64,000 bases of DNA from Natrarchaeobius chitinivorans (GTDB lineage Archaea > Halobacteriota > Halobacteria > Halobacteriales > Natrialbaceae): positions 124,001 to 188,000 of the forward strand of contig NZ_REGA01000006.1 in NCBI RefSeq assembly GCF_003841505.1, in the 5' to 3' direction. Positions 23,338-37,751 of this stretch are shown in pieces (the stretch's first letter is position 1; the number at the start of each line of letters is the position of its first letter). Position numbers and translations under genes: made by a program. The notes below the pieces were generated by a model that did not search any database, was not told the DNA's origin, and saw only the letters and a program-made list of their open reading frames with translations.

Positions 23338-23382
23338 TATTTCTGCCGCGAGCAAACTCGAGACAGCGGATCGCACGATCTG

Positions 23383-24206: not shown

Positions 24207-24384
24207 GCTCACGGGTCACTGCGTTCCCCGTTCGCTGTTCCGCGGTTCTCGCTCGTTTCACTCGCTCACGGGTCACTGCGTTCCCCGTTCGCTGTTCCGC
24301 GGTTCTCGCTCGGTTCACTCGCTCCGAACCGCGTCCGCTCCGAACCGCGTCCGCTCCGAACCGCGTCCGCTCCGAACCGCGTAC
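24207..24384. repeat. two adjacent tandem repeat arrays
   Basis: A 57-bp unit starting GCTCACGGGTCACTGCG is present twice (24207, 24264). It is followed by four copies of a 16-bp unit GCTCCGAACCGCGTCC (24321-24384; the last ends GTAC). No spacer-repeat structure of the CRISPR type is present. Confidence 0.85.
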
Positions 24385-24465
24385 CTCACCCGCTTTCTGT
24401 GACGATTGTTTCCTGACCGCGAAATAGCAAAATGGATATCAGTTCGTTGTGAGTATGCCTGCTGT

Positions 24466-35842: not shown

Positions 35843-35974
35843 ACGTCCAACGCGTGCGGGCGAGACACAAATGCGTTCGGGAGCGGGGAGTGTAGGGACG
35901 GACAACTTTCCGTCGACCAGTACCGAGCTCCTGCTGTCGAACCCACAGCCGACAGCCGGCGCTGGCCGCTCGAG

Positions 35975-36075
35975 TGTGATGGGTGTGTGAATAGTCGTGG
36001 CTGTCACGACAGGAGCCACTGCACGCCATCCCACACCAGATCGCCAGACTGATCGGCGATGGGTGTGTCAATCGT
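35975..36075. repeat. degenerate family B-like repeat
   Basis: GATGGGTGTGTGAATAGTCG (35978) recurs as GATGGGTGTGTCAATCGTCG (36058). Between them are CCACTGCACGCCATCCCACA and the imperfect stem CACACCAGATCGCC/GGCGATGGGTGTG, related to the family B core. Confidence 0.45.
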
Positions 36076-36133
36076 CGGGATTGGTAAATAGTGTCTGCTC
36101 TCGAGTTACGAATCCACCACACCGGACTGCTTC

Positions 36134-36316
36134 TCACTCGGAAGTGACGAACAAGACGATTAACAGAAGTCCGACTGACATCCCCATCAGCGGTCCCCCA
36201 TTTCCAGTCCGTCCGGTGTAATAGGCGGCAGTCACGACAGCAAAAACACCTGCCAGAAGCATAGCCACCTCTATCTTCTCATCGACGACGAACTCCGGTG
36301 ATGAGGTTTCGCCCAT
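36134..36316 (-). CDS. small membrane protein
   Basis: A 60-residue protein with two hydrophobic helices (AMLLAGVFAVVTAAYYTG and GMSVGLLLIVLFV) joined by a polar RTGNGGP turn, after an acidic N-terminus MGETSSPEFVVDEK. The ATG at 36316 was chosen over a TTG two codons upstream. No family was recognised. It is isolated next to the tRNA-Asp mosaic. Confidence 0.55.
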   Translation of the reverse strand: MGETSSPEFVVDEKIEVAMLLAGVFAVVTAAYYTGRTGNGGPLMGMSVGLLLIVLFVTSE

Positions 36317-36725
36317 GCTCAAACGGTTGAGACGCTAGGTGAAAAACGTCAGTGATCGTTTTACAGCCAGAACCGGACCCGCTACTAATTTTCCGCTCAC
36401 ATGAGCACACGCGAGGCGGTGCTCGTCGAGTTGGTTCGCGGAAAAACACGCCCGGAGCGGGATTTGAACTACCTGAACGTCGCTCGCTGTGCTCGCTCGT
36501 TCCGTCGTTCACATCCCGTCGTTTGCGTTTCGCTGCCGTCGTCGCTCGCTCGTCGCTTCGCTCCTCGCTCACGAGTTGACGGCAGCAGAAGACGCCCGGA
36601 GCGGGATTTGAACCGCGGTCGCAGCAACGCTGCTCCCTGATTCAAATCCCTTGTGGGGTGTTTCCCGCTCACGTGTGACGAGCACACGCGAGGCGGTGCC
36701 CGTCGAGTTGGTTCGCGGAAAAACA

Positions 36726-36798
36726 CGCCCGGAGCGGGATTTGAACCCGCGTCACAACCGTGACAGGGTTGTATGATGGGCCACTACACCATCCGGGC
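36726..36798 (-). tRNA. tRNA-Asp (anticodon GUC), copy 1
   Basis: 73 nt on the minus strand. The acceptor stem is GCCCGGA/TCCGGGC with discriminator G. The anticodon stem CAACC/GGTTG flanks loop CTGTCAC, giving GTC. The T-arm is GCGGGTTCAAATCCCGC. Its sequence is identical to copy 2 at 37140-37212. Confidence 0.96.
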
Positions 36799-36825
36799 TT
36801 CCGACTCAGCGTTTCCCGGTGACAC

Positions 36826-36832
36826 GCTTAAG
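36826..36832 (-). promoter_or_regulatory. TATA-like box of tRNA-Asp copy 1
   Basis: CTTAAGC on the minus strand, 28-34 nt before the tRNA 5' end. Confidence 0.5.
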
Positions 36833-37139
36833 GGTTTTGCTCTCGGTCCTTCCCGTCTTCGGACGTGTTATCCGCCTGCCAGCACAGCTGGCTCGAGGAG
36901 CCGCCTCTCGAGGACCGGCCAGCCGATTCGACATGGTTTCGACGGCTCGAGAGGCGGCGATCGCTCCTCTCCCACGAGTTGACATCGGCAGAAGACGTCC
37001 GGAGCGGGATTTGAACTACCTGAACGTCGCTCGCTGTGCTCGCTCGTTCCGTCGTTCAAATCCCTTGTGGGGTGTTTCCCGCTCACGTGTGACGAGCACA
37101 CGCTACGCGGTGCTCGTCGAATTGGTTCGCGGAAAAATA

Positions 37140-37212
37140 CGCCCGGAGCGGGATTTGAACCCGCGTCACAACCGTGACAGGGTTGTATGATGGGCCACTA
37201 CACCATCCGGGC
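37140..37212 (-). tRNA. tRNA-Asp (anticodon GUC), copy 2
   Basis: 73 nt on the minus strand, identical to copy 1, 341 bp away. It has its own upstream TATA-like box, so both copies may be expressed. Confidence 0.96.
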
Positions 37213-37523
37213 TTACGATTCGATAACCCGGAGGGAGTATTAAGACTTTCCAATCGGCGGCCGTGTGGTACGGTGAATCGAGCCACGAGACCGGCGATTG
37301 CAGGCAGTATCGTGACACGAACTCACACGACCCACAAGGAATATAACCGAGAGTCGGGTATCGACAACTGTGATCGCCTATCCCGGTCAGGGACGCCCCG
37401 GCCGTTAGCTCCGCTTTTCACTCGAGTTAGTAACCGTTAAATGCGTGCCCCCGCTATCAGCCTGTAGTATCTCGTGACAGCCACTTCTCTCCCGGTAGCC
37501 CACACGCACATCGACACTCACAC
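37213..37523. promoter_or_regulatory. 311-bp divergent spacer between tRNA-Asp and rpoH
   Basis: CTTAATA on the minus strand (37238-37244) is 26-32 nt before tRNA-Asp copy 2. On the plus strand GTTAAATGC (about 37436-37444) is the best AT-rich box before rpoH, about 80 nt upstream. No gene is seen. Confidence 0.4.
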
Positions 37524-37751
37524 ATGGTAGACGTAAGCCAACACGAACTCGTTCCGGAGCACACAATCCTCGACGAAGACGTCCTCGAGGACGTGCTTTC
37601 GGAGTACGACATCGACCGTACAGATCTTCCGAAAATCAAGCGAAACGATCCCGCCCTGCCCGACGACGCGGAAATCGGGGACGTCATCAAGATCGTTCGA
37701 AACTCGCGAACGACCGACCAGGCGGTCGTTTATCGACTCGTGGTGGAATAA
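37524..37751 (+). CDS. rpoH: DNA-directed RNA polymerase subunit H
   Basis: A 75-residue small polymerase subunit, the homologue of the eukaryotic Rpb5 C-terminal domain. It contains [31 protein letters not shown] and the terminal [11 protein letters not shown]. It is the first gene of the RNA polymerase operon. Its TAA is followed at once by the rpoB'' ATG (no spacer), so translation is coupled. Confidence 0.97.

Follow-up and report, generated by a model that had tools for sequence, protein, structure and literature searches.

A tRNA-Asp array in Natrarchaeobius chitinivorans and a candidate family of tRNA-directed hairpin cassettes in Halobacteria

Introduction

The tRNA-Asp genes next to an RNA polymerase operon of Natrarchaeobius chitinivorans are accompanied by detached copies of their own 3' end. 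They lie in what is called the window here, the whole stretch of 64,000 nucleotides that was analyzed (contig NZ_REGA01000006.1, positions 124,001 to 188,000), and they raise the question of how such fragments come to lie behind intact tRNA genes. The usual attachment sites in archaea are tRNA 3' ends (PMC8371274), and the first-pass annotation of this DNA read the pattern as a sign of repeated integration and loss, which would make each fragment an attR left behind by a tRNA-targeting element. We think that the array may instead belong to a family of tRNA-directed hairpin cassettes which spans the whole class and whose units are acquired and lost through recombination at the T-loop, a reading that we hold with about even confidence. 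The units suggest a not yet described kind of very small DNA cassette, mobile or recombining, that is aimed at tRNA genes, and a search of the open-access full-text literature found no description of them.

Architecture of the tRNA-Asp array

Read on the minus strand, the array has the order tRNA-Asp, H1, H2, 3'-end copy, decayed H1, tRNA-Asp, H1, H2, copy, H1, H2, copy, truncated H1. The repeating unit of about 85-160 bp consists of the trailer hairpin H1, the hairpin H2 and the last 20 nt of the tRNA (nt 54-73). ARAGORN, Rfam and a comparison of the repeats bear out the two intact tRNA-Asp(gtc) genes and three 3'-end fragments of the first-pass annotation, and its five copies of the 21-nt 3' end GTTCAAATCCCGCTCCGGGCG are likewise present, four of them exact (in the two tRNA genes and at 36449-36469 and 36593-36613) and the fifth, at 36996-37016, with one mismatch. 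It had placed new hairpins behind two of the fragments. Two exact GGGATTTGAA...TTCAAATCCC pairs do exist, at 36603-36650 and 37006-37064, with a chance expectation of 0 in 100 dinucleotide shuffles, but the count has to be corrected to three hairpins, as an imperfect one with a single base change (TTCACATCCC) lies at 36459-36517. In the H2 of this array, the inverted GGGATTTGAA pairs with TTCAAATCCC, which is the beginning of the next 3'-end copy.

All features are encoded on the minus strand. The first tRNA-Asp(gtc) gene (37140-37212; 62.4 bits against the Rfam tRNA model RF00005) ends with the 20 nt TTCAAATCCCGCTCCGGGCG that are repeated in the copies. The H1 of unit 1 (37065-37139, TATTTTTCCGCGAACC...CGTGAGCGG) is a 94% repeat of the H1 of unit 2 and has a relative at tRNA-Gly(gcc), and the H2 that follows (37006-37064) carries between its arms GGGATTTGAA and TTCAAATCCC a core of the family F2 (CGACGGAACGAGCGAGC..GTTCAGGTAG), which is also found at tRNA-Asp genes of other species. 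The first 3'-end copy (36996-37015, one mismatch) is succeeded by a decayed H1 and the region upstream of the second tRNA-Asp(gtc) gene (36726-36798, also 62.4 bits). Behind this gene, unit 2 comprises an H1 (36651-36725), an H2 with a core of the family F1 (36603-36650, TCAGGGAGCAGC..GCTGCGACCGCGG) and an exact copy (36593-36612, 20/20). Unit 3 has an H1 (36518-36592, TCTTCTGCTGCCGTCAACTCGTGAGCG...) that is also found in Natrarchaeobius chitinivorans arrays, an F2-type H2 (36459-36517) that repeats the region 37006-37064 at 94% and whose left arm is decayed by one base (GGGATGTGAA), and another exact copy (36449-36468, 20/20), after which a truncated H1 (about 36403-36448) closes the array. 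Across 174 nt, the tRNA-Asp arrays behind the two genes of the window agree at 94%.

H1 starts with a T-rich run right after the discriminator base, and its stem is closed by C-GA-R/Y-GA-G steps. A kink-turn reading of H1 and H2 was dropped, because the G.A pairs come without an adjoining 3-nt bulge. A coding role of the array was also rejected, as the open reading frames that cross it are overlapping and mechanical. In the region 35900-37600, Rfam 15 recognized the two tRNAs, together with weak sub-threshold matches that overlap them, and no other structured-RNA family. The rpoH-rpoB-rpoA operon (37524 onward, plus strand), which is oriented opposite to the array, starts about 310 bp away from it, and the neighborhood is made up of housekeeping genes (rpo, thermosome, KH, phosphoesterase). 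The link to the RNA polymerase operon that had been drawn for this locus is incidental, since equivalent units are found behind many tRNA types elsewhere.

Units behind other tRNA genes of the genome

A census of the same genome yielded 42 tRNA hits, and the flanks of 41 tRNA genes were examined for the gene's own nt 54-73 within 500 nt. Downstream, the own 3' end recurs at 20 of the 41 genes; upstream it does so at just one, where the copy belongs to a tandem tRNA-Asp neighbor. Wrong-tRNA pairings matched in 48 of 1632 cases. The layout of H1, H2 and copy, with one to three units each, is seen behind tRNAs for Gly, Lys, Met, Phe, Val, Ser, Arg, Leu, Glu, Gln, Asn and Asp, and the repeat measures exactly 20 nt regardless of the tRNA. 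The outer stem of H2 is formed by the T-loop sequence of the tRNA: a stretch of 9-13 nt starting at the T-loop is present in inverted form and pairs with the direct copy. The left arm is tRNA-specific as well, often across 12-13 nt, as exemplified by Met (GGTAGATTTGAA) and Val(tac) (GGGCGGGTTCGAA). When foreign 3' ends were sought in all arrays of this genome, none was found, and no copy fits another tRNA better than its own.

Distribution across Halobacteria

For a class-wide survey, the H2 signature GATTYGAA-N20-50-TTCRAATC was used, with the reversed pattern as control. It is present in 283 of 292 Halobacteria genomes and in 75 of 77 genera, with up to 24 occurrences per genome, and the reversed control gave 0/292. 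In other Halobacteriota the signature stays at chance level (about 10/124 genomes vs 3/124 for the control). When one locus per genome was inspected (n=30), 23 were located downstream of a tRNA gene and on its strand, and the next 20-mer matched that tRNA at 16-20 of 20 nt; the remaining seven comprise two inside tRNA-Ser genes and five chance-like ones that have no tRNA nearby. In a genome from another family (G010), many tRNAs are followed by arrays that have as many as five units and near-perfect copies. Three loci of that genome (L201, L204, L206) also show a second copy type, with a mini-hairpin (CGGGACTCCCG or CGGGAGTCCC) taking the place of the T-loop ahead of the acceptor sequence.

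Turnover at the syntenic tRNA-Asp locus

The comparison of the tRNA-Asp gene beside rpoB covered the window and up to 70 named species and used a quick rpoB tree of 71 rows. The locus of the window, whose host belongs to the Natrialbaceae, is closest to that of Natrarchaeobius chitinivorans. One to five units occur in 40 of the 70 species and none in 30; counts of units are lower bounds because some drafts carry runs of N between tandem tRNA-Asp genes. The array is not shared unchanged among relatives; an unchanged array with no element ever inserted is what the first-pass annotation had named as pointing to simple tandem duplication. Presence or absence of units switched at least 22 times on the tree, in counts that do not separate gain from loss. 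The acceptor stem of tRNA-Asp exists in two versions with at least 11 switches on the same tree, and 62 of 63 copies agree in this respect with the tRNA gene that they accompany.

When close relatives are compared, a filled site has exactly one unit and one 20-nt copy more than an empty one, and the flank resumes at the base behind the tRNA. The clearest pair is Natrinema limicola (filled, L135) and N. hispanicum CDM_6 (empty, L128); weaker pairs are found in Halorubrum (L184/L178) and in Natrinema (L151 or L149 vs L150). In N. hispanicum CDM_6 a unit is located at the second tRNA-Asp gene, and in strain DSM 18328 and N. limicola at the first, and in Natrinema a base that lies 8 nt beyond the unit travels with it. 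These precise sites and the variable unit number support the suggestion, also made for this locus at first sight, of a hotspot at which small cassettes are repeatedly gained and lost.

Core families and their exchange between tRNA genes

The cores enclosed by the arms of H2 fall into recurrent families: F1 (CAGGGA..ACCGTGG), F2 (ACGGAA..TTCAGGTGG), F3 (TAGA..GCGTGG), F4 (CCTGCCAG..CTGGCTCCGG), F5, F6 and F7. A single family occurs behind many tRNAs, and one tRNA can have different families in sister species. In G010, an identical 40-nt core lies behind two different tRNAs (L196, L198) and an identical 28-nt F1 core behind two others (L206, L207), and the arms and 3' ends nonetheless match the local tRNA in each case. 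Other cores of this genome are 88-96% alike, one of its arrays has five units, and at L196 a block of two units is duplicated in tandem.

Ectopic conversion or slippage is the main rival to the cassette reading. It would hold that the arrays arise by local duplication only, through unequal crossing-over, replication slippage and ectopic gene conversion between tRNA flanks, aided by the hairpins and the 20-bp repeats and requiring no dedicated mobility enzyme. This would account well for copies that always match the local tRNA, for the duplicated block at L196, for the likeness of the two tRNA-Asp arrays of the window and for the base that moves along with the Natrinema unit, which is also expected from ectopic gene conversion between two tRNA-Asp genes. 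Likewise, a loss by slippage between 20-bp repeats needs no enzyme. It fits poorly, however, with identical or near-identical cores behind different tRNA genes whose common sequence amounts to only about 9-10 nt on each side, with core families that differ between sister species at a single locus, and with the limitation of the arrangement to one class, as slippage is universal. We regard it as doubtful that local duplication explains the units on its own.

Folding and strand specificity

All of the 91 collected cores share one orientation, and the tip GARCGNAGYGA is found on the tRNA strand in a ratio of 31:0. In the F1 stem, five pairs are changed on both sides, which was reached in 0 of 500 shuffles. 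The H2 of unit 2 in the window gives on the tRNA strand z-scores of -7.8 as RNA and -5.1 as DNA, and the tRNA-sense strand folds better than its complement, particularly as RNA (-29.7 vs -22.1 kcal/mol).

These properties lead to a second alternative, in which H1, H2 and the 3' end would be co-transcribed with the tRNA and act in termination, in 3' processing by tRNase Z or as an RNA resembling tRNA 3' fragments, so that structure and tRNA identity are under selection. The covarying stems, the better fold of the sense strand as RNA, the fixed orientation and the retained discriminator-end sequence in the copies are in line with such a role, and an RNA function would be equally compatible with the strand asymmetry and the tandem G.A pairs. 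Yet units are missing at 30 of the 70 syntenic tRNA-Asp loci and behind many tRNAs, the core families are freely exchanged, and no Rfam family matches. Moreover, the acceptor 3' strand of the copy, as read by eye, has no 5' partner within the unit, so that the copy is not a tRNA-like end. A functional RNA is, in our judgment, rather unlikely to be the basis of the arrangement.

On a Haloarcula halophila plasmid, one member of a tRNA array, a tRNA-Cys gene, is split precisely at the boundary of nt 53 and nt 54 by an F4-type hairpin, and this interruption marks the edge between T-stem and T-loop as the insertion point. That array (L191, NZ_CP119561.1:237657-242714) has at least 22 tRNA genes beside a TROVE (Ro60-like) gene, and tRNAs other than tRNA-Cys may be interrupted there too. 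BLAST searches of plasmids and phages with H2 gave only chance-level matches in phages and none for F1 in plasmids; F4 matched one tRNA-array plasmid and shared a 22-nt tip with an unrelated plasmid element. The latter is a non-coding conserved element of haloarchaeal plasmids, CGTGGCTGCGCGCGCAGCGAAGCGAGCACGGAGCGGAGGGTGGGGCGG (L192, L193, L195 near 2000-2560; L194). Three of the four examples lie next to a gene that carries the annotation DNA-binding protein, and the exact 22-mer of the common hairpin tip is present in 46 plasmids.

Viruses and integrases

In the genome of the window, an SNJ2-like provirus with an integrase 57-61% identical to those of SNJ2 and HHPV4 occupies tRNA-Arg(tct). 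After its attR core CCCATCGTGCCCG come a chromosomal H1, H2 and copy, and past this copy a virus remnant starts. The region (L096/L097, G000:C11:110277-~128300) comprises an SNJ2-like pleolipovirus provirus and a rearranged remnant, about 94% identical, at the hairpin-borne 3'-end copy. Locus L002 had been considered as a viral attP that carries H2, which was rejected because the junction shows a chromosomal unit behind attR. The attP-side regions of SNJ2, HHPV4, Halfgib1, Harhisp1, Humcor2 and pHK2 contain neither H1 nor H2 and have an acceptor-end core of about 13 nt at most, and a search of viral contigs with the F1 pattern gave no match. As a provirus occupies the true tRNA-Arg end and a remnant of a related one its copy, and as the attP regions examined are free of H1 and H2, the units are chromosomal landing sites and not viral att sites. 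Unit-borne copies can serve as extra attachment sites for integrating viruses.

The proposal that the fragments are scars of lost viruses or plasmids can be judged on this basis. Besides the general use of tRNA 3' ends for attachment, the proviruses at tRNA-Arg and its copy are in its favor, and so is a broken tyrosine integrase (G000:C15:105529-105975) directly behind two tRNA-Gly(tcc) units, which suggests that a second element inserted into a unit. The origin from provirus scars is nevertheless rejected because of the missing H1 and H2 in the viral attP regions examined. In addition, the spacers are not variable remnants but constant structured segments of 85-160 bp across many genera, coding remnants are absent, the repeat is exactly 20 nt for every tRNA, and the 15 PF00589 matches of the genome include none on the contig of the window (C6). 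We consider ordinary tyrosine-integrase scars very improbable. Still less credible is the idea that the host keeps the copies as decoys which draw integrating viruses off the true tRNA gene, as the provirus remnant at the tRNA-Arg(tct) copy is the one clear case and the provirus related to it is found in the true tRNA gene. Moreover, the tRNA is restored upon integration in any event, and H2 structure and core families would be left unexplained.

A proposed recombination at the T-loop

For the cassette reading, genome comparison shows that units lie downstream of tRNA genes in fixed orientation with copies that match the local tRNA, that close relatives with and without a unit diverge precisely at the tRNA 3' end, and that a few H2 core families are common to different tRNA genes, with identical cores at two tRNA genes of one genome. 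Units would be gained and lost by recombination at the G53/T54 junction of T-stem and T-loop, and the 20-nt repeat (nt 54-73) would represent a duplicated target or a crossover core. The structure that is recognized may be the hairpin of the tRNA-sense strand, and the left arm could stay complementary to the local copy through fold-back copying or selection. Candidate enzymes are a tyrosine recombinase or a nuclease that acts on single strands.

Freely circulating cassettes that bring their own 3' end would leave foreign ends behind, and the lack of any in the genome of the window argues against such a simple circulation; it favors target duplication or gene conversion over a classical attP x attB exchange. 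It also speaks against the cassette reading that no recombinase is tied to the units. Only tentatively, and with clear reservations, we propose a dedicated cargo-less haloarchaeal system in which a recombinase would act on the folded single-stranded H2 and the T-loop of any tRNA gene, duplicating nt 54-73 in an attC-like manner and using all tRNA genes as integration platforms.

Comparison with known systems

Attachment sites of archaeal tyrosine integrases (SNJ2, pNOB8 and SSV types; PMC8371274) resemble the units in the tRNA 3' end as target, the restored tRNA sequence and the accumulation of arrays at one site. The units differ from them by having no integrase or cargo, by the fixed 20-nt repeat from T54, by two structured hairpins that are missing from the examined viral attP regions, and by their presence behind about half of all tRNA genes. 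With integron attC sites they have in common a strand-specific imperfect hairpin, a bulged base, conserved outer boxes, a variable tip, tandem arrays and a putative crossover edge G|TT. In contrast to integrons, no IntI is shown and cargo genes are absent, and the outer box is the tRNA T-loop GTTCAAAT instead of GTTRRRY. Indeed, the arms GATTTGAA..TTCAAATC do not follow the R''/R' pattern RYYYAAC ... GTTRRRY, as GTTCAAAT has a C at the required R. By analogy, the units seem to work most like an attC-type hairpin cassette array, and membership is not claimed.

The PATEs of Haloquadratum and small mobile repeats (PMC3119063) as well as REP/BIME elements are similarly short, non-coding and palindromic repeats that are scattered over haloarchaeal genomes. 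PATEs, however, make no target duplication and are not bound to tRNAs, whereas every unit described here carries the local tRNA end; being bounded by 20-nt duplicates of that end, the units do not have the form of PATE or IS200-IS605 derivatives. MITEs share the short non-coding nature, the inverted arms and the direct repeats at the borders. The units also have 20-bp direct repeats at precise insertion sites, but arms and repeats are the target's own tRNA sequence, and no parent transposon was found in a search that was not systematic.

If the cassette reading is correct, almost every haloarchaeal genome would hold a fast-turning family of structured repeats at its tRNA genes that is invisible to standard annotation. 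It would provide ready-made duplicate attachment sites for viruses and plasmids, would help to explain the hotspots at haloarchaeal tRNA flanks, and would make it testable whether archaea possess an integron-like recombination based on hairpins. It would also be a caution against taking tRNA 3'-end fragments in haloarchaea for provirus scars.

Two smaller features of the window may be added. Behind tRNA-Pro(tgg), at 23338-23372, stands a truncated H1-like trailer hairpin that is accompanied by neither H2 nor a 3'-end copy and is perhaps the remnant of a unit, and intergenic short tandem repeats, CACGGGTCACTGCGTTCCCCGTTCGCTGTTCCGCGGTTCTCGCTCG and CCGAACCGCGTCCGCT, are located at 24210-24395.
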